Positions 8,314 to 21,195 of a stretch of DNA of 22,225 nt are shown one piece after another. The stretch comes from a virus, in IMG/VR virus record IMGVR_UViG_3300036772_000055, positions 1 to 22,225 of that record; one strand, written 5' to 3'. The translations under genes were made by a program, and so were the position numbers. Below the pieces are notes generated by a model. It had not been told where the DNA came from, made no database searches, and saw only the letters and a list, made by a program, of their open reading frames with translations. Positions within the stretch are counted from its first letter, which is position 1. Each line of letters starts with the position of its first letter.

Positions 8314-10926
8314 TCAGCGTGTCGTGATCAAATCTTCTGCAAGTTCTTGTGCCTGGGTGCTTGACAGACCGGCCGAGGTGAAGACCATGGCGAGGAACTG
8401 GGCGGCACCGTCCTCTGCCTGGCTGTTGGCGAGCTGCTTGATGATGTTGCCGTGCGCCTGCTTCTTCATGCTCTGCACCCGGCGCTTCAGCTTCTTCTCC
8501 TGGTGCGCCTGGTAGAGCGGCTGGATGATGGCCTGGGAGATGGCGGTAGCAACAGGGATGATGGCCAGCAGCCATTCGTGCATGCTGACGGGAGTGGTGC
8601 CTGGCAGCGCGAAGAACGCGCCCAGGGTGATGCCGAGGTTGGCGAGAGCGGCACCGATCGCCGTGACCAGGCCGCGATGCTTGTCGGCCTCCTCGTGCGC
8701 CTGGGCGATCATCTCCTCCTTGCGCTGCTGGAGGCTGGCCAGGCGGTCCTTGACCTGCTCGTTGCGTATCTGGGCTGCCTGCCTGGTTGACAGGTCGCGA
8801 ACTGCCTGCTCCAGGTCAGCCAGGCGCTGGTCGCGCTGCTTGGCCTCTTCAGCCAGGCGGTGAGTCTCGCTGTCGGCGGCCAGGGCTGCCTTGGACAGGG
8901 AGTTGACCGCAGAGCTGATCTTGTCCGCGTCTGCCGGGCTAAGCTGGCCGTTCTGCCTGGCCAGGTCGATCTGGTGCACGGCGTTCCTGGTATGCGCGAC
9001 CACGGTCCTGTGGTCGAGGGCCTGCTTCGGGTCCACTGGCTGGTCCGGGTTATGGCCCTTGATGATCGCCTTGGTAGACGGCGACATGCCCTGGACCTGC
9101 GTGATCTGCCGGGTGAGCCGGGAGGTGGCGGCGTGGTGGCCGCGCTCGATGTCCTGGATCTTGGCCTGGAGATCTGATGACCCGCCGCCGCTGACACGCT
9201 GGAACTCCCCGTGAGGGTTGCGAACCAGGTGGTGCCGCTCCATGAACCCGGTGACTACCTGCCAGCTCACCAGCTCGATGGGCTCGGCTAGCTGCGATGC
9301 AATCCCGACGAAAGCTGGCGGGACAACTCCTCCGCTGCTGCCAGGCGCTCGTCCTCCGGCAGGTCGCAGTACCCCTCCGGCACGCGAATTGTCACCTTGG
9401 GTGTTGGCGTGCTCGATGATGCGTCCGCCACCGGTACCTCCCGTGTCTATCTCCCTGCCATTGTCAATGTCCCAGATGGCGATCTGATTCCTGGCTCTAC
9501 CAGCCATTTCTGCCTCACCACGGTCTGTGATGTTCTCGGAGGGGTCCAGCCACAGCTTGCCGTCGCTCACCCAGCCGCCGAGGAACATGCCCGGCTTGGA
9601 GAAGGAGGCCCGCTCGGTCATGAGCATGTCGTCTATGGACCGCGCCAGCTTCTTCGGGTCGTCCAGGACAGTCTCAGGGTAGGTGTGCGTGTGCCCTTCC
9701 AGCGAGACCATGAACCCGTGGACGGGCTCGCCGCCGTCGCTGACGCTAACGGAGAAGCCCTCGCGGTTGCGCTCGATGGTCTTGACCGCCTGCGGTACCC
9801 CGCCGAACCTGGTCCACCGGCCGCGCGAGTCGCGGGCCTCGTCCTGCCAGCCCAGGTCGGTCACCTGGCCGTAGATCGTGCTGGCGTCCAGCATCGTGGT
9901 GCCCGCGTGCGTGGGGATCTCGTCGTGGAGTGCCTCGTTGTCCCACTTCCGCCAGGCGTTGCGGATCATCGTCGCCCGGCCAGCCTGGCGGGCTGCCGCC
10001 CCGGTGTTCCCCGCTACCTGCCTGGCCTCGGTGTAGTCGTTCTCCTCCTGCTGCTGGAGCCAGGTCATGGCCTGGAGCTGGTGCGGGGACATGGCGATGC
10101 CGTCGCGCTGGGAGATCCGCCGGGCGGCCTCGCGGTACTGGTCGGCCACGTAGTCATAGAACCGGGGCTTGTCGATCGGCGCCTTGTCGGCCTCGGACTT
10201 GGGCAGCCTCTTGCCCATCACGACGGACATCGCGTGCCGGTCGATCACCACGTCGCCCATCGTGTCGCCCGGCGCGTCGCCGCCGTTGCGGATCAGGCGG
10301 CCGAACGCCCGGGTCTTCGAGGACCCCAGGGCCTGCTCCACCGTCTGCCCGTCCAGTCCCTTCTGCGCGTTGGCCTGCATCGAGCCGGTGATCATGCCCT
10401 CGCCGGGGCCGATGGCGCGGCCCAGCTCCAGAGCCCGGTCGGCGTTGAACATGTTGACCGGCCAGGCGGTCTGCGGCGAGTACGCCGAGAGCACCACAGC
10501 GCCCTTCTCCGCGTCACCGTGCGCGATGGCCTTGGCTACCGAGTGGGCGTCGGCGTACCAGCGCATGCCCTGCTGCCGGAAGCCCTCCGGGGTGCGGTCG
10601 TAGACCGCCATGACGTTCTCCGGGCTGACCGGGTGCTGCTGGAAGAACGGGTGGTCAGACGGGTGGTGGTAGGTGGCGACATCCCGGTGCAGCCGGTTGG
10701 TGTCCGGGGACTGGTAGTCAGCCCCGGACACGTGCGTGGCCTCGCCGCCCTCCCGGGTCCACTCGCCGTGCTCGTTGCGCAGCTCAGCGGGGTTGAACCG
10801 CCAGCCCATCTCGATCTGCTCGTCGTAGTTGTCGTCAGGGTCCTCGTCCAGCCAGCCCTGCCCCTCGTGCTCCAGGGCTGCCAGGCTGGTCGATACTCTC
10901 TGCCCGTCCGAGGTGATCAGCGTCAT
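8314..10926 (-). CDS. Multidomain cargo-like protein: glycosylase-like, coiled-coil and TM domains (870 aa)
   Basis: Four blocks are visible, each after a short peptide module. Residues 38-61 hold IEMGWRFNPAELRNEHGEWT. Residues about 100-300 have GMRWYADAH, LSAYSPQTAWPVNMFNA and VVIDRHAMSVVMG, plus a PHQLQAMTWL helix. This pattern I associate with a phage family resembling helix-hairpin-helix DNA glycosylases (DUF7178-like). A second module is at 355-376 (DLGWQDEARDSRGRWT), then a domain (380-497) with FLGGWVSDGKLWLD and IAIWDIDNGREIDTGG. A third is at 549-580 (IELVSW...RNPHGEFQRVSGG), then a long coiled coil (585-750) and two membrane segments (752-773, 783-805). The ATG overlaps the upstream stop (ATGA). 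A protein ejected with the DNA would explain pore-like TM segments plus enzyme-like domains; that is inference. Confidence 0.75.
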   Translation of the reverse strand: MTLITSDGQRVSTSLAALEHEGQGWLDEDPDDNYDEQIEMGWRFNPAELRNEHGEWTREGGEATHVSGADYQSPDTNRLHRDVATYHHPSDHPFFQQHPVSPENVMAVYDRTPEGFRQQGMRWYADAHSVAKAIAHGDAEKGAVVLSAYSPQTAWPVNMFNADRALELGRAIGPGEGMITGSMQANAQKGLDGQTVEQALGSSKTRAFGRLIRNGGDAPGDTMGDVVIDRHAMSVVMGKRLPKSEADKAPIDKPRFYDYVADQYREAARRISQRDGIAMSPHQLQAMTWLQQQEENDYTEARQVAGNTGAAARQAGRATMIRNAWRKWDNEALHDEIPTHAGTTMLDASTIYGQVTDLGWQDEARDSRGRWTRFGGVPQAVKTIERNREGFSVSVSDGGEPVHGFMVSLEGHTHTYPETVLDDPKKLARSIDDMLMTERASFSKPGMFLGGWVSDGKLWLDPSENITDRGEAEMAGRARNQIAIWDIDNGREIDTGGTGGGRIIEHANTQGDNSRAGGVLRPAGGRAPGSSGGVVPPAFVGIASQLAEPIELVSWQVVTGFMERHHLVRNPHGEFQRVSGGGSSDLQAKIQDIERGHHAATSRLTRQITQVQGMSPSTKAIIKGHNPDQPVDPKQALDHRTVVAHTRNAVHQIDLARQNGQLSPADADKISSAVNSLSKAALAADSETHRLAEEAKQRDQRLADLEQAVRDLSTRQAAQIRNEQVKDRLASLQQRKEEMIAQAHEEADKHRGLVTAIGAALANLGITLGAFFALPGTTPVSMHEWLLAIIPVATAISQAIIQPLYQAHQEKKLKRRVQSMKKQAHGNIIKQLANSQAEDGAAQFLAMVFTSAGLSSTQAQELAEDLITTR

Positions 10927-11807
10927 TTATACCCGTCCAGAGTGTGCAATTTCATTGACCTGGCAGGCAGATCCTCGGGGGGCAAGTGACTAAGCGCGTA
11001 TTCTCCGAATGCCTTCGCGGCGGGGCGCGGGTTTTTATTCAGGGTGAACTCGGCCCACAGCTCGCCCTGCATTTCGTACGGGCTGGATATGCCGTATTGC
11101 GAGATAGCCTTTTCCATGGCGTAGCGATTCCGGTCGGCCCAGTTAGCCAGATCCCTGAATATAATCCTGCCCGTCTTGCCTTTGGCCGGAGGCGGTTGGA
11201 TGCCGATCGCCTTGGCGATAGGAGCCCAGTAGCCGGGGTCAGTCAGCAGGTGGCGGTTCCTCTTCGTCAGGTGCGCGCCTACAACGTGCCCCATTTCGTG
11301 GGATAGCGTCATGTCGATCAGCGAGTGCTGCGTGGCCGTGGGCACCCAGAAGCCCTCTTTTTCCTGATCCTTCTCCAGCTTCCTGGCGTCCCCGTCGCCA
11401 ATCACGTCGGTCGATCCTGGAGGGAGGAATATCGTGCCATTGGGCATGGTCTCGCCCAGCACAGAGGGATTACCGTGCGCGTCGGGTATGTGGTTGGTGA
11501 AGGTGACCACCTGCTGGTCCACGATGCCGGGAATCAGCTTGCGCTGGCGCTCCAGGCTTTTGGCAACCTCGGCGGTCGCTGCGGTCTTGATGGCGTCAGG
11601 CATGTACCTGATGTCGGACTTCTCGTCCGGCTCGCTCCAGTCGTCGTCGCCGTAGTAGCCGCCGTAGCCGTGACCTGGGTCGAACCCGATCTTCTCCTCG
11701 CCGCCGCCGTCAGCCCCGTGCACCCAGCGACCGTCCGGGCCACGCGGCTCGTTCAGCCAGGCTTTCTCCCAGCCCAGATCCAGGAGCTGGGAGCTGAGCA
11801 GCGTCAC
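10923..11807 (-). CDS. Putative zinc metalloprotease (HEMGH) with N-terminal peptide module (294 aa)
   Basis: GTG start at 11807 inside the upstream stop (GTGA). The N-terminus is the shared module LLDLGWEKAWLNEPRGPDGRW (about residues 8-30). A zincin signature, HEMGH at 170-174 within MTLSHEMGHVVGAHL, gives two His ligands and the catalytic Glu. A downstream glutamate in YEMQGELWAEF (E249 or E253) could be the third ligand. Metalloprotease domains of this sort occur in phage proteins linked to Mu F-like genes. Codon choice differs from the neighbours: A/T-ending codons and AT-rich stretches are common (for example around 10921-11170), which suggests a more recent acquisition. It could cut head proteins during assembly or a host target after injection; substrate unknown. 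Confidence 0.78.
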   Translation of the reverse strand: MTLLSSQLLDLGWEKAWLNEPRGPDGRWVHGADGGGEEKIGFDPGHGYGGYYGDDDWSEPDEKSDIRYMPDAIKTAATAEVAKSLERQRKLIPGIVDQQVVTFTNHIPDAHGNPSVLGETMPNGTIFLPPGSTDVIGDGDARKLEKDQEKEGFWVPTATQHSLIDMTLSHEMGHVVGAHLTKRNRHLLTDPGYWAPIAKAIGIQPPPAKGKTGRIIFRDLANWADRNRYAMEKAISQYGISSPYEMQGELWAEFTLNKNPRPAAKAFGEYALSHLPPEDLPARSMKLHTLDGYK

Positions 11808-14317
11808 AGCTTCGCTGCCTGCGCGGTGAGCGCAGCGGCCTGGGACAGAAGAGAGATGGCCTGCTTGGTCAGGGCGGCGATCTGCGTCTTGATCTGGGCC
11901 TGGGCTATGTGCTGCTGCATCGCCGCGATCTGCGCCGGGGTAACTGCCTTGCCAGCCGCCGAGATCATGGCGGCAACCTGGCCCGCAGGGGTAGCTGCGG
12001 TCGCGGCCTTCGCCTTGGCTGCCGCCGCTACTCCGGCCGGGGTCTTGGCCGCTGCCGCCTTGGCTGCGGCTGCCGGGGTAACGGCCTTCTTGGCGGCGGT
12101 CTTAGACCCGGCCTGCTTGGCGGTCTTGCCCTTGAGCGCCTTCTTCAGGAGCGCTATCTGCCGGGCCAGGCGTGCCGCCTGCGCCCGGAGCCCGGCGGCC
12201 CGCTTGAGCAGCGCCGCCTTCTGGCTGGCCTTGGAGTTTGCGGCACTCTGAGCGCCCCCGCCGCCTCCGCCGCTGCCGAACTGCCCTCCGGCCGGGGACC
12301 CCGCCGCGACGTGCGTGTCCTTGGCTGCCCCGGCCGCCGTGCCTACCAGCTCGATTGCACGCACAACTGCACTGACGTTTGCATGTGCATGTGCAATTGC
12401 CCGCTTGGCGTCCCAGTCGGTGTTGGTGGCCTGCGACGCGGAGCGGACCTCGGCGTGCTTGCTCGTATTCGCCCACTTGGCCGTTGACGCCTTGGCGATA
12501 GCGATGGCGTGGGAGAGATCCCTGGCCCGGCCCTGCCGCAGAATGGCGTGAGCAATGTTCTGGATGTAGGGCGGCAGCTCCATGCCCTTCTGGTGCCAGA
12601 GGCCGGGACCGCCGGGCTTGCCGAACGGGTGCGGCGTGGTCGCCAGGGCCGGGGTCTGCGCGGACAGCTCCAGAATCCGCCGCCCCAGCTCCTGGTTGGC
12701 TGCCTGGATCGTGCGCGACTTCCTGGCGTACGACCTGGCTGCTACGGTGCGCGCCTCGAACACCCGGGTCCTCTTCGGCTGCGCGGCCAGGCCCTGCCCG
12801 GTGTGCAGCAGGTCCAGCTTGTCGGCCGCCGCGTTCAGCCGAGCGGCAAAGTTGGGGTCGCTGTAGGACTCGCGGCTGGCCGCCTCGCGGATCGTGCCGG
12901 AGTGCGCGCGGGCCAGCGACGGCTGGCCCCGGTCGATCATGTCGGCGGCGCGCTTGAGAGCCCGGCTGGCCGGATTTTCCGGCGTGCTGTCCGGGTACAG
13001 GCCAGCGGCCATCTTCGACGCCGAACGGCTGAACGGCCCCTCCCTGGAGCCCACCAGGGCCGAGAAGTTCCGCCCCTGGTGGTAGTCCGACTCGCGGCCG
13101 AGCTGCCGCAGCTCCTCGGCGTGCGCGTGGCTGCCGATGCCGCCCTTCTGCATCCCCTTCGCCATAGCGCTGCTGTCGGCAACATGCCTGGCCACCGCCA
13201 GGCGGTCGGCAGATGCCATGCGCCCGGTCCACCGGCCGTGATGGTCGCGCGGCTGGAGCGGGTTGAACGCCAGCTCGACCGCCGTGGTGAGATCGCCGCT
13301 CTGCGTCGCCGCCGCGACCTGCTTGGTCTCCCGCTGGCTGGTCATCTGCTGCGGCTTGGACACGTTGATGTCGATCCGTCCGATATTGGTGGTGTCCGGG
13401 GCGTTGAGCGCCTTGTCGCCGCCGGGCTGTCGCGCCGTGGGCTTGTCCGTCAGGTCGTTGCTGCCGTCGCTGGCCCCGGGCAGGTCGGCGTGCGGTAGCT
13501 GGCTGTTCTCCGCCTGCATGTCCTCGATGTCTTTGACCAGCAGCATGTGCCGGTGCACCGCGTCCATCGAGCGCTTGGCCGCGTCGTGCTGGTCATCGGC
13601 CAGCAGCCCGTGACGGCGCAGCGACTGCGGCGTCATGTTGCCGACCGCTGCGGTCAAGTGCCGGTTGGCGGCGCTCGGCATGTTGTTGTCCAGTGCCCTG
13701 GCCGCGTCGCGGATGTGCTGGTGCGCGCCGAGGTCGGGGTGCCGTTCCTGCATCTGGTCGGCCATCTTGCGCATCGACGCGGAGACGGTCTTGCGCATCA
13801 CGCTGGTCGGCTTGTACGCCGGGACCCGGGGCGGCCGGTAGGAACCGGCGGCGAACTCCATCGGGTTGGACAGCTCGTCCATGCCGCCGCTGTCGTAGCT
13901 GTCGGCCTGGTTCAGGCTGGGACCGGAGGGAGTGTCCTCTTCGTTGGCCGCTTCCCGCTGCCGCCGCCGGACTTCCTCGGGGTGCGCCTTCTCCCAGGCC
14001 GTGGGCTCGAACGACTTGAGAGCCGCCTGGTCCTTGTAGTCCTGGACCTTCTGGTTGAACATGTCGATCGCTTGCTGCCGGATCTGGTTTGCCCGCTGCA
14101 TGTCACCGGCTGCCTTCGCGGCCAGGAACTGGTTGTGCAGGCGCTGGACATCGGGGTGCCTGGCAGCCGACGCCTTGGCCATCTCGCTCAGCGAGCTGGG
14201 GTCCGGCGGCAGGTCCAGTGCATCCACGTAGCTGTTGCCGATGTTGTTGCTAGTCCACTCTCCGTGGGCGTCGCGCCGCTCCATCGGGTTAAAGTGGAAC
14301 CCCAGCTCGACGGTCAT
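11804..14317 (-). CDS. Large helical Mu F-linked protein with repeated peptide modules and Lys/Ala tail (837 aa)
   Basis: The start is taken as the ATG at 14317 because AGGAGG lies five bases upstream and the ATG overlaps the stop of the Mu F-like gene; the frame is open further upstream. Peptide modules lie at residues 2-22 (VELGFHFNPMERRDAHGEWT), 346-366 (VELAFNPLQPRDHHGRWTG) and, in a variant form, 654-684 (IELVGT...HVAAGSPAGGQFGSG). Between them are long charged helices. Residues about 581-616 (LPPYIQNIAHAILRQG, then SHAIAIAK and AKWA) are a short helical motif I know from other phage head proteins. Residues 690-837 are extremely rich in Ala and Lys, recalling histone H1-like tails. No catalytic motif is seen. 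Probably a structural or DNA-associated internal head protein. Confidence 0.72.
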   Translation of the reverse strand: MTVELGFHFNPMERRDAHGEWTSNNIGNSYVDALDLPPDPSSLSEMAKASAARHPDVQRLHNQFLAAKAAGDMQRANQIRQQAIDMFNQKVQDYKDQAALKSFEPTAWEKAHPEEVRRRQREAANEEDTPSGPSLNQADSYDSGGMDELSNPMEFAAGSYRPPRVPAYKPTSVMRKTVSASMRKMADQMQERHPDLGAHQHIRDAARALDNNMPSAANRHLTAAVGNMTPQSLRRHGLLADDQHDAAKRSMDAVHRHMLLVKDIEDMQAENSQLPHADLPGASDGSNDLTDKPTARQPGGDKALNAPDTTNIGRIDINVSKPQQMTSQRETKQVAAATQSGDLTTAVELAFNPLQPRDHHGRWTGRMASADRLAVARHVADSSAMAKGMQKGGIGSHAHAEELRQLGRESDYHQGRNFSALVGSREGPFSRSASKMAAGLYPDSTPENPASRALKRAADMIDRGQPSLARAHSGTIREAASRESYSDPNFAARLNAAADKLDLLHTGQGLAAQPKRTRVFEARTVAARSYARKSRTIQAANQELGRRILELSAQTPALATTPHPFGKPGGPGLWHQKGMELPPYIQNIAHAILRQGRARDLSHAIAIAKASTAKWANTSKHAEVRSASQATNTDWDAKRAIAHAHANVSAVVRAIELVGTAAGAAKDTHVAAGSPAGGQFGSGGGGGGAQSAANSKASQKAALLKRAAGLRAQAARLARQIALLKKALKGKTAKQAGSKTAAKKAVTPAAAAKAAAAKTPAGVAAAAKAKAATAATPAGQVAAMISAAGKAVTPAQIAAMQQHIAQAQIKTQIAALTKQAISLLSQAAALTAQAAKL

Positions 14318-14985
14318 GCTGCCCTCCTGTACCGGCCAGTGCCCGGGATTCCGTAACTCGGCAGCAGGCGGGCGCCGGGAAAGAGAGCACCCGCCCGGCA
14401 CCGGCAGTGCGGGTGGACGGCTCCCGGGTACCCGATCAGCGGCATGTGATCAGCGTAGAAGTTCCTGCCATCTGCCTGCCTGCATTCTGCGCTGGTCCGC
14501 GTGTCATGTACAGTGTGCCAGCCCAGAAGAAGGCCGCGTGTCATTGCCTCGTTATCCACCTGGGCGCCTGCCTGGCTGCGCTGCCAGGTAGCCACCAGGT
14601 GCTGGGCGTAGAACCGGCGCTCGCGGTGTATCGCGCTGGCCAGGGCCGAGAGCTGGCTGGTGTTCCTGCTGCGGGCTGCGGCCAGGTCGGCGCCGATGCG
14701 CCTTGCTGCGGTCAGCACGAACGAGGCCCGGCGCTGGAGGTTCAGCCGCTCGGTCGTCATCGTCGCCGGGCCATAGAACCCGGTCACGCCCGGCGGGTTG
14801 CTGATCGCGATGTCCAGCGCCGCGAGCACGGCCCGGGGCGGGACGCCCGCGAAGTACGCCGTCCCGGCCAGGCCAGCCAGGGCAGCAGAGGCAGACACGG
14901 CAGTGAGGAGCGCGGTGCCGACCGCCGCGACAGCAGCGGCGTCGGCGGCCGGGTTGACCGGCTGCGGCTGCTGCGGAGTGGTCAT
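14314..14985 (-). CDS. Mu F-like minor head protein (223 aa)
   Basis: The C-terminal third has the Mu F signature: GWHTVHDTRTSAECRQADG (residues 155-173), then PLIGYPGAVHPHCRCRAGA (182-200). The H-x-H-C-x-C cluster and C168 are typical of this family, which joins the portal during head assembly and whose C-termini are often swapped for effector domains. The N-terminus is Ala-rich and helical. At 223 residues it is short for a Mu F-like protein, as if the usual long N-terminal part or effector had been moved into the separate large genes that follow. It overlaps the upstream membrane protein (ATGA) and the next gene (ATGA), placing portal-side assembly and the cargo-like genes in one coupled unit. 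Confidence 0.83.
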   Translation of the reverse strand: MTTPQQPQPVNPAADAAAVAAVGTALLTAVSASAALAGLAGTAYFAGVPPRAVLAALDIAISNPPGVTGFYGPATMTTERLNLQRRASFVLTAARRIGADLAAARSRNTSQLSALASAIHRERRFYAQHLVATWQRSQAGAQVDNEAMTRGLLLGWHTVHDTRTSAECRQADGRNFYADHMPLIGYPGAVHPHCRCRAGALFPGARLLPSYGIPGTGRYRRAA

Positions 14986-15290
14986 GTGCCTTCATCCCTG
15001 CCTACGGCCTGTGTGCGCCAGATCATGAACGCCCGCCAGAGGATTACCGCGCCGGTCCCGAAGACGGCTGCCACCTGGAACCAGGCCAGGAACGGCCCGT
15101 ACGGCACGCCGAACATGACGTGCAGCGGGGCGGGTGCCAGGGACACCCAGACGCAGGACTCCAGCAGGACGATGTTCCAGCCCCAGTCGCTGCGCCACCA
15201 CGGCCAGATCAGCGAGACGGCCGGGGTGAACAGGAAGCTGATCCAGAACGTCGCTACTGACGCGATTGCCAGCATGGTCGGGGGCTGCAC
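14982..15290 (-). CDS. Small holin-like membrane protein, paralogue B (102 aa)
   Basis: GTG start at 15290, with AAGGGGA eight bases upstream. It has three hydrophobic segments: about residues 6-27 (MLAIASVATFWISFLF), 40-58 (IVLLESCVWVSLAPAPLHVMF) and 68-87 (FLAWFQVAAVFGTGAVILW). The connecting piece LIWPWWRSDWGWN is nearly identical to VRLFWPWWRSMWGWN in the gene upstream, so the two are tandem paralogues. Both end with a basic 'AW/WR..(L/M)IW/Y R' stretch. Size, topology and the WPWWR motif resemble small actinophage membrane proteins labelled putative holins, although no endolysin lies in the window. An alternative is a membrane anchor for assembly or an exclusion protein. Confidence 0.7.
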   Translation of the reverse strand: MQPPTMLAIASVATFWISFLFTPAVSLIWPWWRSDWGWNIVLLESCVWVSLAPAPLHVMFGVPYGPFLAWFQVAAVFGTGAVILWRAFMIWRTQAVGRDEGT

Positions 15291-15291
15291 A

Positions 15292-15624
15292 TTAACCGTC
15301 CCCTTGCCTATCGCGCTCGGCCCCGGCCTTCTGGTCCCGGTAGATGAGCACTGTGCGCCAGGCGATGACGAACGGGATCACGGTGAGGGCGGCTACCTCG
15401 ACCCACTCCAGGACCAGGCCGGGCTCGATGCCGAACTCCGTCTTGAGGACGGAAGCAAGCAGCGCCAGGGCGAGCATCTCGGTCTTGATGGCCATGTTCC
15501 AGCCCCACATGCTGCGCCACCACGGCCAGAACAGGCGGACGATGGCGGGCCAGGTGAAGCACACCCAGAATGTGACGCCGATCGCGTACGTAGCCCATTC
15601 CCGAAGGAACTGGAGCTGTGTCAT
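15292..15624 (-). CDS. Small holin-like membrane protein, paralogue A (110 aa)
   Basis: Starts MTQLQFLREWATYAIGVTFWV. It has hydrophobic segments at about residues 12-30, 47-60 (EMLALALLASVL) and 72-92 (VLEWVEVAALTVIPFVIAW), and the motif FWPWWRSMWGWN at 32-43, shared with the downstream protein. The C-terminal tail is charged (RDQKAGAERDRQGDG) and probably cytoplasmic. The ATG overlaps the stop of the 69-residue gene (ATGA). Tandem paralogous membrane proteins can form a holin/antiholin pair in which one regulates the other. Here the pair lies between portal and Mu F-like genes rather than beside a lysin, so that reading is uncertain. Confidence 0.7.
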   Translation of the reverse strand: MTQLQFLREWATYAIGVTFWVCFTWPAIVRLFWPWWRSMWGWNMAIKTEMLALALLASVLKTEFGIEPGLVLEWVEVAALTVIPFVIAWRTVLIYRDQKAGAERDRQGDG

Positions 15625-16097: not shown

Positions 16098-17708
16098 TCA
16101 TGCCATCCGCCCCGGGGGCGGCACCATCGGCGGCTTAGCGGGCGGGGTAGCCGAGCCGACCGCAGGCGGCCCGGCAGCAGCGCGAGCACCAGGCGGCGGC
16201 GGCCGGAGCCCGGCGCCGCCGTTCTGTGCTGCCGCGTGCTGGGCGATGCCGAACGCTGCGCCGGTCATGCCCTGGAGCGCCCCGAGGCTGCCCGCTGCCT
16301 CCGGCGGCATGCCCGGCGGCGGGTTGCCCGCGAGCTGGTCGGCCCGCTGGCTGGCCGTGGAGATCAGCGCGTTGTGCACCTGGTCCACGTCGAGCTGGAG
16401 GATCGTCGCCATCCGCTCGGTGATCAGGTCGAACACCGGCAGCGGCACGTGCAGCACAGGAGCGGCGGCCATCTGGCCGAAGAGAGTCAGCAGCGCCTGG
16501 ATCTGCTCATCCTGGAGCGGCCCGCACTTGATCTTGGGGAACGCGGCGTCGGACCCGAAGTTCAGGATGACCAGCGGCCGGGCCACGTCGTGAGAGAGCG
16601 ACCCGGCTATCTCCTTGGACACGGCCTGGCGTGACTTCAGGTAGAAGCTGCTCTGGTCCTGGGACAGGGCGTAGCTGCCCTTGCCGCCGGTAGCCGAGCC
16701 GGTGAGCGCCATGAACCCGGCCAGCACGCTGTGCGTCTGCCAGCCCTCCAGGAACGACAGCGCGTCCAGGAAGAACTTGCCGTTGTCGCCGTGCGACTCC
16801 AGTACCTCGAACGTCTTGCCGTTGTCCGGCGGTCGCTCCAGGCCGACGACGCCCGAGGACTTCAGGGACGCGATGTTGTCGGCGCGGTCGTTGGCCTCGT
16901 TCTGGTCGTTGCCGTAGACGATGGTCCTGGGCAGCGCCTGGTTCTCCAGGAAGTGGTACCAGAGGTAGAGCAGCTTCATCTTGGTCTGGTAGCACCAGTA
17001 CGACACCTCCATCTCGGAGGTGCCGGTCAGCGGCTCCATGTCCTTGCCGTGCGTATAGATGTAGCTGCGGACCCGGGGGATGTCCACGTACCCGGGGACC
17101 TTCTGCTTGGACGTCAGCGCCAGGTTGCCGCCGAACAGCCAGACCTGCTGGCGGAAGCCGTTCTGCTCGCCGCTGCGGTCGTTGTACCGGGCCTGGCAGG
17201 TGGCGGGCGGGCGGTAGGCGATCTTGTCATAGATGATCTTGTTGTCGTCTTCGCGGATCTTGTAGACCTTCTCGAAGAACGACCGGCGGAAGATCTGCGC
17301 CGTGGTGACCTGGCCGATCAGGTCATGCCAAGGCGTCTGCATGCCGCCCTCGCTGTCGGGGGTCATCAGCACCGAGTGGACGAACTCTGCCTCGCCCTTG
17401 TCGCCCCGGGCTGGCTCTATCGACCAGTCGGCCTCGCGGATCGGCAGGGTGAGCACCAGCTTGATCGCGTTGCAGATGCCGTCGCGCGAGAACATGACCT
17501 TCATGTCCCGCGCGCCCCACTCGCCGTAGTCGAAGACGTCGCCCTCGCCGTAGTAGGCGAACAGCCGCTGGCCCCAGTCGAACTGGGTGCCGATCTCCTG
17601 GCTCATCAGATCGCGCCTGCGGGCGCCGGGAGAGCCGGGAGGTGCCAGGTCGGGGAACTCTACGACGTTGCCGCCGCCGGAGATCTTGAACCCCTTGCCA
17701 GTCGCCAC
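16098..17708 (-). CDS. Portal protein, Mu gp29 / DUF935-like (536 aa)
   Basis: The portal forms the ring at one head vertex through which DNA is pumped. GTG start at 17708 with AGGAGG seven bases upstream. Family features include an N-terminal helix region with GICNAIKLVLTLPIREADW (77-95), the middle GTSEMEVSYWCYQTKMKLL (229-247) and the LTGSATGGKGSYALSQDQ stretch (335-352) that marks DUF935-type portals, followed by a helix with HDVARPLVILNFG. The C-terminus (460-536) is rich in Pro, Gly and Ala and probably flexible. The gene lies downstream of the terminase and upstream of the Mu F-like gene, the expected order for a Mu-like head plan, although three non-classical genes separate it from the terminase. 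Confidence 0.85.
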   Translation of the reverse strand: MATGKGFKISGGGNVVEFPDLAPPGSPGARRRDLMSQEIGTQFDWGQRLFAYYGEGDVFDYGEWGARDMKVMFSRDGICNAIKLVLTLPIREADWSIEPARGDKGEAEFVHSVLMTPDSEGGMQTPWHDLIGQVTTAQIFRRSFFEKVYKIREDDNKIIYDKIAYRPPATCQARYNDRSGEQNGFRQQVWLFGGNLALTSKQKVPGYVDIPRVRSYIYTHGKDMEPLTGTSEMEVSYWCYQTKMKLLYLWYHFLENQALPRTIVYGNDQNEANDRADNIASLKSSGVVGLERPPDNGKTFEVLESHGDNGKFFLDALSFLEGWQTHSVLAGFMALTGSATGGKGSYALSQDQSSFYLKSRQAVSKEIAGSLSHDVARPLVILNFGSDAAFPKIKCGPLQDEQIQALLTLFGQMAAAPVLHVPLPVFDLITERMATILQLDVDQVHNALISTASQRADQLAGNPPPGMPPEAAGSLGALQGMTGAAFGIAQHAAAQNGGAGLRPPPPGARAAAGPPAVGSATPPAKPPMVPPPGRMA

Positions 17709-17764: not shown

Positions 17765-18211
17765 TTAGTCAGTGGCGGCCTCGATGGCAGGCTGCTGCTC
17801 GCCGTACGCCTGGTAGAGCGTCTTCTTCGGTTCTACCAGGACGTACGGCAGCATGATCTGCTCTATCTCGGCCAGGCCCGCCTCGATCATCGCGATCTGT
17901 ACCTCAAGCCAGTCCTTGAGCACACGCCAGGTCACTCGCGCAGCCTGTTCGCGGGAAGCGAATCGCGGCGGAATGCCGCCGCTTGCCCGCGACGACCGCA
18001 GCAGCGCCTGGTACGTGCCCTCGATGTTGGCGGGCATGTCGAACGCGCGGTCACCCCAGCGGGTGGCGATCACGAACGACAGGCCGATCGGCACCTTGTG
18101 CTCCATGTCAATGGAGATCTTGCGCGCCCCGGCGTTGGCCAGGATGCCCATGCACTCGGTGGCGGACTTGCTGGGGTCGATGGTCGTGGTGTAGTTCAGC
18201 GGGCCTGGCAT
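17765..18211 (-). CDS. Conserved phage hypothetical protein (148 aa)
   Basis: Starts MPGPLNYTTTIDPSKSATECM, followed by ILANAGARKISIDMEHKVP and then SFVIATRWGDRAFDMP. The second half is helical: REQAARVTWRVLKDWLEV, then EAGLAEIEQIMLPYVL. This order (YTT plus helix ending in GA, central beta part, 'EQ-x-x-R-x-x-WR-x-L-x-x-W/K-LE', then 'E-GL..E...LPY') matches a widespread family of uncharacterised phage and prophage proteins of about 150 residues, often encoded near replication or packaging genes. AGGAGG lies five bases before the ATG. It is encoded between the SPFH-like protein and the portal. Function unknown; an accessory role in DNA metabolism or packaging is a guess. Confidence 0.68.
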   Translation of the reverse strand: MPGPLNYTTTIDPSKSATECMGILANAGARKISIDMEHKVPIGLSFVIATRWGDRAFDMPANIEGTYQALLRSSRASGGIPPRFASREQAARVTWRVLKDWLEVQIAMIEAGLAEIEQIMLPYVLVEPKKTLYQAYGEQQPAIEAATD

Positions 18212-18220
18212 GACTGCCTC

Positions 18221-19138
18221 CTACTTGCCGGTGCTGAGCGCCAGGCCGCTGCCCGAGCCGGGGAAGCACTGGAACCCGGCCGGTAGCTGCCCGGCCTCGG
18301 ACTTGACGTCGGTCAGGCACTGCGCGACGAGCTGCGCCACGGTGGGCGTGCCCAGCTTGGCGAACGCCGCCGCGTTCTCGGTGTTGACCTTGACGTTCTC
18401 CGTCGCGATGGCGTCGTTGGCGAATGCCTGCTGGATGGCTTGCAGCTTGGCCTCCACCGAGTCGGAGAAGTGCGCGTACGGCATGAGCACCGACTTGACC
18501 TGGATGTCGGCGCCGATGTCGGTCTCCATCTGTGCCAGGATCTGCGGGCCGAACGACGTGAACTGGCTCGACGCGGTGTTCGTGCCGGTCACGTTGCTGA
18601 CGTCGGTGATCGGGTTGTAGTCACCCAGCACCTGGTTGACCACCTGCTTGAACTCGCGCACCACCACGGCGTCGGTGATCACGGTCATGAAGTCGCCGTG
18701 GTTGGCGTAATTGCTGTACAGCGTGCCCGCTGCTCCCGGCAGGATCTTCCACTGGATCGTGGTGTCCACGCAGGCCGTCTGCTGGCCGCCGATGCGCACG
18801 GTCAGGCAGTTCCTGCCCTCGAAGGTCGTGGTCTGCACGGTCTCGTCCACGTGGACGACGTTCAGCCACGGCTCCCAGGTCTCGTGCATGCCAGGGCCGA
18901 ACACGCCCGAGCTGACCGCGCCGAAGGACACCGGCACGCCGATGTTCCTGGTGGGCACCGACTTGACCCCGGCCAGGGCGAACAGGCCCAGCCCGAGGAT
19001 GACGCACAGCGCCGCTGCGCTGCCCGATATGCCACGGATGCTGACGCCGCCCTCGGTCTTGCCCGAGACGAACACGGCGACGATGGCGAGTATCACCGCC
19101 GCCAGCCAGAGCATGATGGCTAGAACGAACCATCCCAT
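18221..19138 (-). CDS. SPFH / band-7-like membrane protein (305 aa)
   Basis: The start is set at the ATG at 19138 (MGWFVLAIMLWL): a purine-rich site, GAGAGGGAGAGG, lies eight bases upstream, and the longer frame runs through the tRNA-like sequence. Two membrane segments lie at about residues 4-26 and 38-58, followed by VKSVPTRNIGVPVSFGAV (58-75), a typical band-7 opening. A beta-rich part contains TVQTTTFEGRNCLTVRIGGQ (100-119) and VDTTIQWKI (124-132). The helical part includes VVVREFKQVVNQVLGDY and KLQAIQQAFANDAIATENVK. SPFH proteins assemble into ring- or cage-like scaffolds on membranes. The C-terminus (CFPGSGSGLAL) looks flexible. The gene overlaps the previous one by 19 bases. A role in head assembly at the membrane or in host membrane change is inference. 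Confidence 0.78.
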   Translation of the reverse strand: MGWFVLAIMLWLAAVILAIVAVFVSGKTEGGVSIRGISGSAAALCVILGLGLFALAGVKSVPTRNIGVPVSFGAVSSGVFGPGMHETWEPWLNVVHVDETVQTTTFEGRNCLTVRIGGQQTACVDTTIQWKILPGAAGTLYSNYANHGDFMTVITDAVVVREFKQVVNQVLGDYNPITDVSNVTGTNTASSQFTSFGPQILAQMETDIGADIQVKSVLMPYAHFSDSVEAKLQAIQQAFANDAIATENVKVNTENAAAFAKLGTPTVAQLVAQCLTDVKSEAGQLPAGFQCFPGSGSGLALSTGK

Positions 19139-19374
19139 TTGCGTTGCCTCTCCCTCTCCCTTGCAGCCAGTCGCTCCAGCTCCGCCGGAGTCTTCGCCTG
19201 GCCGAGGTTTGCCAGGTACGCCGTGGTGGCGTCCCGGTCTTCCTGCTCCAGCAGCCCACGAGCACCCTCGCGCACGAGCCGCTGCTTTCTGCCTTTCACG
19301 ACGACCACCACGGTGACCACGGCAGCAGCCAGCGTCGCCACGAAGGCGAACAGCAGCAGCAGCAGGTCTGTCAT
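19120..19374 (-). CDS. Small single-TM protein upstream of SPFH gene (84 aa)
   Basis: Two ATGs are close together (19380 and 19374). I choose the second because GGGAG lies six bases before it, while the first would touch the Shine-Dalgarno. The protein starts MTDLLLLLFAFVATLAAAVV, with one long hydrophobic segment (about 3-26), then a basic stop-transfer region (KGRKQRLVREGARG) and a charged helix ending RERERQRKWDGSF. The gene overlaps the SPFH-like gene by 19 bases, so the two are very likely translated together and may act together at the membrane. Longer forms starting further upstream would read through the tRNA-like sequence and are not credible. No family recognised. Confidence 0.66.
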   Translation of the reverse strand: MTDLLLLLFAFVATLAAAVVTVVVVVKGRKQRLVREGARGLLEQEDRDATTAYLANLGQAKTPAELERLAARERERQRKWDGSF

Positions 19375-19396: not shown

Positions 19397-19460
19397 CGGG
19401 GCGGCGGGGTTCGAACCCGCGATCTCCGACCCGTACCAGTTCGGTGAACGGAGAGCCCCT
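19397..19460 (-). other. tRNA-like sequence (canonical T-arm, incomplete cloverleaf)
   Basis: On the minus strand, 19420-19404 forms a perfect T-arm: a 5-bp stem GCGGG/CCCGC around the loop TTCGAAC. It is followed by seven bases (CGCCCCG, 19403-19397) of which five pair with GGGGC at 19459-19455 as an acceptor stem. Between them a 6-bp stem (TCTCCG/CGGAGA) closes a 20-base loop in place of separate D and anticodon arms. No CCA is encoded. I could not fold a normal D arm plus anticodon arm in any register, so this is a degenerate tRNA, a tRNA 3'-end fragment such as an attachment-site core, or another structured RNA. It lies in the largest gap of the window, between terminase and the small membrane protein. 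Confidence 0.45.
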
Positions 19461-19518
19461 GGCTGGGCGCCGCTTGGCCTCTCCACGGCCCACGCACACC
19501 GCGTACTTGGCTACCAGA

Positions 19519-21195
19519 CTACCGCCAGGCGTGCACCGCCGCGCGCTGTCTGCGCGGCCGGTCCTCGTCGTCCGCGCCGTCCTGCGGGTTGAGGAAGTTG
19601 TCGCTGTCTTTCGGTGCGAATCCCTCCAGGTCCCAGTCGCCGCCGGAGACATCGAGCAGCCCGCCGTGCGCGCCCTTGAGGCGGCGCCGGGACACCGCCT
19701 GCGACGGTGAGATGCCGATCGAGTCCAGCTCCTCGGCCGCCGCCCAGCGCCGCACCCCGGCGCGCACCGGGTTCTCCTCGAACGTGGCGTTGAGGAACGG
19801 CGTGCACGCCCAGACCAGGCTGTCCAGCCGGTCGGGGGACCGCTCGTCGGCCGCGCCCGTGAACGTGGCCATCTGGTCCTCCAGCTCGGCCATCTTCACG
19901 ATGTCGCGGTGCCAGGTCTTGGCCAGGCTGTCCGGGTCGGTGATCTCGTACGTCTGGCCGTCATAGCAGTGCTTGACCACGCCGCGCTCGTACAGCGCCG
20001 AGACCGGCTCGGCCCGGGTGCGCTTGCCCTGGTTGCGCCCGGCCCACACCTTTTCCACAGCCGGGATCTGCTCGGCCCTGATGACCCCGCTCTTGACCAG
20101 ATCCTTGATCACCTGACGGAACACTGTGACTAGCCACTCGCCGCCGTGGTTCTTCTCCACCACGATCCTGGCGTGCCACTGGACCGCCTCCAGCACGACA
20201 CGCTTGGCGAAGGCCGCAGGAGCCTCCTGGCCGCCCCAGTTCTTGGCGACGTACAGGTAGCCCAGGTGCATGCCCGCGATCGTGTACGCCTGCTCGTCGC
20301 TGGTCTCCTGGCCGTCTGACGGGTCCACCCCGATGACCGTCCGGGTGAGGAACGGCGGCCCGCCTTCCTGCCCGACCATCGGCACCTGGATCTCGTCCAG
20401 CAGGTCCCGGGTCCACAGGGCATTGGCCACGTCCTCCAGCAGCTCGCCCTCCAGCTCCTGGCGCTCCAGCCTGGTGCCCTTGGCTGCACCGACGACTGCC
20501 CGGTAGAACGCGCTGGACAGGTTGGCCACGTTGTCGATGGTGCGCAGCTTGCGGACGATGACGCCGCCCTCAGACGGCTCGTTGCGGATCAGCGAGCGGA
20601 CCAGGGCGCGAGCCGGGCGCGACGCCTTCGGAGTGCCGGTGGCGATGATGACCGAGGAGCCCATGCGCACCGCGTACCGCAGCGACTCGTTCCAGGTGGT
20701 GTCCCACTTGTCCCAGAGACCTACCTCGTCGCACCAGGCGGCGCGCAGGTTGCGGCCCTGGATGCGCAGCCCTCCCTCAGCGGCGGAGTCGGCGTAGACC
20801 ACGATGCCGTTGTGCAGGATCACCTGGCCGTAGGTCCGCCAGGCGCTGCGGACGATCTTGCTCTTGTGGTCCTTGATCTGGCCCATCGACGTGCCTAGTG
20901 CCCTCAGCAGGCCGGACTCGCCCTCCACGCACTTGGTCCAGGCATCGGCGTAGGTAGGCGCGACGATCGCGTACTCGCCCTCGCCGCTGGTGTCTTCCAT
21001 CACGAGGTCGGCCAGGCCCTGCGCCCCTGCCCTGGTCTTGCCTGACCCGCGCCCGCCCTGGAGATAGAACACGCGCCACTCGCCGGTTCGCTCGGGCAGG
21101 ATCTGCTCCGGCCGCGCTACCTTCCGCCAGCGCAGCCGTGGGTCCTCCGGCAGGACGTCCAGCCGGGAACCGAACTCCTCCCAGAGCGTTCTCAC
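19519..21195 (-). CDS. terL: Terminase large subunit (558 aa)
   Basis: The packaging motor and nuclease. The ATPase part has Walker A GGRGSGKT (residues 47-54), Walker B with AAWCDE (152-157) and a coupling motif ATGTP (185-189). The nuclease part has VIGVDPSDG (D291), IVVEKNHGG (E347) and SPDRLDSLVW (D455/D458), giving the acidic cluster that binds metal and cuts DNA. The length of about 560 residues is usual. The GTG start at 21195 overlaps the TGA of the small-subunit-like gene (GTGA), and the C-terminal 75 residues are polar and probably disordered. It lies upstream of the portal, separated by three non-classical genes and a tRNA-like sequence. Confidence 0.93.
   Translation of the reverse strand: MRTLWEEFGSRLDVLPEDPRLRWRKVARPEQILPERTGEWRVFYLQGGRGSGKTRAGAQGLADLVMEDTSGEGEYAIVAPTYADAWTKCVEGESGLLRALGTSMGQIKDHKSKIVRSAWRTYGQVILHNGIVVYADSAAEGGLRIQGRNLRAAWCDEVGLWDKWDTTWNESLRYAVRMGSSVIIATGTPKASRPARALVRSLIRNEPSEGGVIVRKLRTIDNVANLSSAFYRAVVGAAKGTRLERQELEGELLEDVANALWTRDLLDEIQVPMVGQEGGPPFLTRTVIGVDPSDGQETSDEQAYTIAGMHLGYLYVAKNWGGQEAPAAFAKRVVLEAVQWHARIVVEKNHGGEWLVTVFRQVIKDLVKSGVIRAEQIPAVEKVWAGRNQGKRTRAEPVSALYERGVVKHCYDGQTYEITDPDSLAKTWHRDIVKMAELEDQMATFTGAADERSPDRLDSLVWACTPFLNATFEENPVRAGVRRWAAAEELDSIGISPSQAVSRRRLKGAHGGLLDVSGGDWDLEGFAPKDSDNFLNPQDGADDEDRPRRQRAAVHAWR

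Follow-up and report, generated by a model that had tools for sequence, protein, structure and literature searches.

An SPFH/Band_7 membrane protein gene as accessory cargo between the terminase and portal genes of an uncultured soil phage

The junction between the terminase large subunit gene (terL) and the portal gene of an uncultured phage from soil, with high-GC bacterial hosts, is a variable cargo slot, and the gene for an SPFH/Band_7 membrane protein found there is an accessory occupant. The phage is represented by a 22,225-bp IMG/VR virus fragment (the window). The SPFH homology, the fold, the paired cysteines and the cargo nature of the site are computed results. We propose, with a probability of about 0.5, that the product is an accessory ("moron"-type) SPFH scaffold that modifies the host envelope, exposes its domain on the outside of the membrane and takes no part in packaging.

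All genes of the interval lie on the minus strand in the order terL (19519-21195; Terminase_6N, E=8e-11, and PHROG terL), a 144-bp gap, TM84 (19120-19374; an 84-aa ORF with a single TM segment), the SPFH ORF (18221-19138; 305 aa), hyp148 (17765-18211; a 148-aa ORF with a weak match to phrog_17260) and portal (16098-17708; Portal_Mu, E=3e-31, and phrog_113). The sequence-only reading had claimed a gene lying between terminase and portal and coupled by a 19-base overlap to a small TM gene. Both particulars are borne out, as terL and portal flank the pair and the ORFs of TM84 and the SPFH protein share exactly 19 bp (19120-19138). hyp148 was absent from that account of the interval. The SPFH gene, hyp148 and portal are tightly spaced on one strand, a sequence scan found no terminator between them, and a promoter/terminator scan around the SPFH cassette gave no match; the SPFH gene is probably expressed late. 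Elsewhere on the minus strand, two adjacent small membrane proteins (14982-15290 and 15292-15624) have a WPWWRSxWGWN motif in common, as if they had arisen by tandem duplication. In 8314-14401 several large proteins repeat an FNPxxxRDxHGxWTx-like motif, each time at the start of a segment; it may mark head-associated proteins for processing or attachment.

The SPFH ORF has an ATG start, a purine-rich RBS and a GC3 of 0.95 which, like that of TM84 (0.79), is typical codon-position GC for coding sequence here. The check proposed beforehand, a profile search with the SPFH domain, matched residues 60-242 to Pfam Band_7 (PF01145; E=2e-10; score 41.5 bits, cutoff 23.6), and phrog_200 matched with E=8.6e-27. 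The protein is made up of TM1 (~2-24), a basic loop, TM2 (~34-56), the SPFH domain (~60-224), a long helix (226-261) and a C-terminal segment with Cys274 and Cys291, the hydropathy of the two N-terminal helices being KD 3.1 and 2.5. An AlphaFold2 model obtained with an alignment of 25 homologues (pLDDT 81, pTM 0.65) shows a beta-rich domain followed by the helix 226-261. A single-sequence phmmer search of the PDB gave chance matches only and an alignment profile was required; with a profile of 25 homologues, HflC (E=1e-6) was the only family matched, bar one marginal unrelated match. Foldseek against the PDB gave the HflK/C entry 7vhq as the best match (E=1e-10), with erlin, prohibitin and stomatin scoring close to it and QmcA lower, while among viral models it matched a Streptomyces phage band-7-like protein (E=2e-16). 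The identification as an SPFH/band-7-like protein stands, since Pfam Band_7, phrog_200, the HflC profile and the fold matches agree: the protein has (i) a domain above the curated cutoff; (ii) the fold with its long helix; and (iii) an N-terminal membrane anchor. The long profile match and the invariant cysteine pair place it in the actinophage band-7-like family (phrog_200).

HflK and HflC are modulators of FtsH in Escherichia coli. The HflC profile and the best Foldseek match confirm the likeness to HflK/C noticed earlier and, together with the same predicted outside topology, would suit an HflK/C mimic that caps or redirects host FtsH, protecting phage proteins or shifting the lysis-lysogeny choice. 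HflKC modulates FtsH in the turnover of lambda CII, and authors of a phage genome have pointed to HflKC/CII (PMC4936722). However, as erlin, prohibitin and stomatin score nearly equally, the fold match of the modelled 305-aa protein indicates the SPFH superfamily and not HflC function; moreover, no lysogeny genes were seen within the window. We consider such a mimic rather unlikely.

According to the positive-inside rule, basic segments of membrane proteins lie on the cytoplasmic side, and HflK/C carry their SPFH domains on the outer side of the cytoplasmic membrane. K/R residues are absent from the segment before TM1 in all 25 sequences compared and present in the TM1-TM2 loop in 24 of them. 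Because the loop is basic and the N-terminus lacks K/R, we infer that the loop is cytoplasmic and that the SPFH domain lies outside the cytoplasmic membrane, on the same side as in HflK/C. A domain so placed could form disulfides from its paired cysteines. Of 70 aligned homologues, 69 have both Cys274 and Cys291, and the one that departs is frame-disrupted at its C-terminus; these counts are not independent, as the set is unevenly sampled, with many near-identical Mycobacterium abscessus prophages, and falls into 20 clusters at 70% identity. A second pair, Cys111 and Cys123 (or a nearby cysteine in the locus L133), occurs in seven homologues, that of the window included; its members co-occur in 7/7, a single member was never seen and the remaining intact homologues are without both. 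In the AlphaFold2 model Cys111 and Cys123 are on adjacent strands of one hairpin. What is new here, at the level of aligned sequences, is the paired-cysteine pattern and the basic inter-helix loop across the intact homologues, which together predict, in a testable way, that the scaffold faces outward in all of the actinophage family.

TM84 has a short N-terminus, one strongly hydrophobic segment (~4-26, KD 2.86) and a basic helical tail that would be cytoplasmic by the positive-inside rule. Its RBS is purine-rich, with an SD-like GAGGGAG; codon bias, RBS and position argue for a real gene, and no homologues were found beyond one sibling record (see below). Conservation of a small TM partner in other phages, as anticipated by the sequence-only reading, did not materialise: none of the 28 genes tested next to 12 sampled phage SPFH genes encodes a small strongly hydrophobic protein.

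Portal and terL queries in IMG/VR gave ~70 related loci each, from which 59 distinct terL-portal junctions were compared. The spacing of the two matches was at most 182 bp in 35 junctions and larger in 24 (a few gaps being inflated by partial matches), and terL adjoins portal directly in most relatives. The sole other carrier of the SPFH gene and TM84 at the junction is IMGVR_UViG_3300036784_000044 (the sibling), with 100% protein identity. The arrangement is thereby seen in two near-identical records only, both of which are fragments beyond which further accompanying genes could lie. When 28 related records were searched for Band_7, only the sibling matched; the other 27 were negative, 20 of them being at least 35 kb long (most 35-125 kb), and all may be fragments. 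The sequence-only reading had named absence from this locus in all related phages as evidence against itself; the gene is indeed absent from them, except for this near-identical sibling.

In L010 and L011, the relatives nearest to the window after the sibling (terL 88-89%), a DUF7873 gene and a tRNA-Ile replace TM84 and the SPFH gene (L010:6360-7438 and L011:1296-2400), while hyp148 is common to L010 (84% identical) and L011 (45%), whose upstream cargo differs. Other occupants of the slot are a DUF7873 gene with tRNA-His (L099:7457-8645), a Ro60-like TROVE/vWA protein with a tRNA-Ser upstream (L040:6035-7711), a second Ro60-like protein (L027:2903-4627; TROVE and vWA_Ro60 domains in both, E down to 6e-56), an HNH endonuclease (L110), phrog_5931 (L058 and L075) and, as read by eye, HNH-like ORFs (L052 and L058) and probable secreted proteins (L041, L053 and L066). 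Because the occupants vary and the SPFH/TM84 pair is confined to the window and its sibling, we regard the SPFH gene as cargo. The slot explains its place amid packaging genes and cautions against deducing function from position. In the terL-TM84 gap of the window (19398-19480, minus strand) a tRNA-like remnant was read from the sequence, its T-arm motif (GCGGGTTCGAACCCCGC) being intact. ARAGORN and Rfam were negative and the fold z-score was -0.45, so it was rejected as a real tRNA; it is possibly a scar left by a tRNA like that of L010 and L011.

The same comparison bears on the membrane-linked assembly put forward earlier, by which the SPFH/TM pair would hold the terminase-portal machine, or the assembling procapsid, at the membrane. 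Both genes of the pair do lie between terL and portal and share their strand; however, the pair is absent from relatives with clearly homologous, mostly adjacent terL and portal, the homologues of other phages are far from packaging genes, and the predicted side of the SPFH domain is extracytoplasmic, away from DNA packaging. Shared with one near-identical sibling only, the pair is no general part of packaging and the SPFH gene does not belong to the conserved packaging genes of the group, and we judge a packaging scaffold very improbable. Restriction to one lineage of the family would also suit a neutral passenger, recently acquired and with no selected role here, but the intact frame, the GC3 of 0.95, the conserved cysteines and SPFH core and the good RBS leave this reading barely credible.

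Phage SPFH proteins are already known from ~300 actinophage records. A tblastn search found a homologue in 311 phage records, nearly all of actinophages and at ~30% identity or below, annotated as band-7-like membrane protein, membrane protein, lipoprotein or hypothetical protein. In the 12 loci that were opened the gene is beside MazG, Cas4, RecE/RecT, RtcB or another early gene, or within a tRNA island, and in none of these actinophage records is it between terL and portal. An IMG/VR profile search added 80 loci, including the nearest non-identical homologue, L127 (IMGVR_UViG_3300036821_000178; 43% over residues 63-294), and L139, where the SPFH gene is divergent from a terL. Except for L139, the terL and portal queries of the window had no match at these 80 loci, a result that terminases and portals of different families would escape. 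SPFH and portal queries against GTDB genome contigs found no relatives. In Rhodococcus phage NiceHouse and in L138 a gene closely similar to DUF7873 is just upstream of the band-7 gene, and from this neighbourhood DUF7873 and band-7 genes may come from a common pool of accessory genes. RtcB RNA ligase genes are beside or near band-7 genes in L122, L126 and L137.

Homologues are common in M. abscessus prophages. This and the sporadic cargo distribution, as well as the predicted extracytoplasmic domain with paired cysteines, would be consistent with superinfection exclusion or an envelope shield acting from outside the membrane. The prophage homologues, however, lie beside recombination/replication genes with no obvious lysogeny-expressed cassette, and we know of no exclusion phenotype for phage SPFH proteins, which makes this role doubtful. 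As a candidate defence system the SPFH protein was rejected, having no PADLOC match.

Hundreds of phages encode SPFH proteins, for which, to our knowledge, no role is known. Overexpression of the Band-7-like LeBron gp49 mildly inhibits growth of M. smegmatis (colony size score 1/3; PMC13148394), those describing phage DLP5 counted its SPFH gene among the morons (PMC5834331) and other phage SPFH genes have been filed as moron or host-modification genes (PMC13384950); Band_7 genes are also found in T4-like phages (PMC1524935). Because of the growth effect of LeBron gp49 and the placements by these authors (moron, host modification and HflKC), we favour the accessory scaffold that modifies the envelope; FtsH modulation and superinfection exclusion are two more specific versions of it, which we cannot separate. 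We propose that a two-helix hairpin would anchor the protein in the host cytoplasmic membrane, leaving the SPFH domain and the C-terminal segment with its cysteines to face outward, and that, like SPFH proteins of solved structure, it may form ring- or cage-shaped oligomers. In the late phase it might then modify the host envelope by modulating membrane microdomains or proteases, by stabilisation or by exclusion of other phages. TM84 may be its co-translated membrane partner; this role is, like oligomerisation and the target, guessed by analogy. In a more speculative extension, which we hold only tentatively, the terL-portal slot would be repeatedly loaded with tRNA/RNA-quality-control and membrane genes, and would here carry an outward, disulfide-stabilised SPFH/TM84 module acting on the host envelope late in infection (e.g. 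through recruitment or blockade of FtsH).

The coupling of an SPFH gene to a membrane-protein gene recalls the SPFH-NfeD operons (QmcA-YbbJ, stomatin-NfeD). The partner in these is an NfeD protein, whereas TM84, tried as an NfeD candidate, matched no NfeD family in Pfam or NCBIfam, and its 84 residues could not accommodate an NfeD OB domain, so that the pair is not of the SPFH-NfeD type. HflK/HflC are the best match by both profile and fold and have the SPFH domain on the outer side, as we predict for the window protein. HflC, however, has one TM helix and works as one of two partners, whereas the window protein has an N-terminal two-TM hairpin and is encoded by a single gene without an HflK partner or any second SPFH gene in the record; it is thus not HflC proper. 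L127 has both cysteine pairs like the window protein, but its SPFH gene is single, without TM84, on the opposite strand ~3 kb from a terminase-like gene and with a QueD-like gene nearby. The actinophage band-7-like proteins (e.g. Gordonia Forza gp125 and Octobien14 gp54, mycobacteriophage Bongo gp116 and Streptomyces Yaboi gp161) differ in that their genes lie by MazG/Cas4/RecET/RtcB or within tRNA islands instead of between terL and portal, that none of the 12 sampled has a small TM neighbour where the window gene overlaps TM84, and that most are without the second cysteine pair. They nevertheless share 22-30% identity with the window protein over most of its length and are built alike, with two TM helices, the SPFH domain, the long helix and the two invariant C-terminal cysteines.
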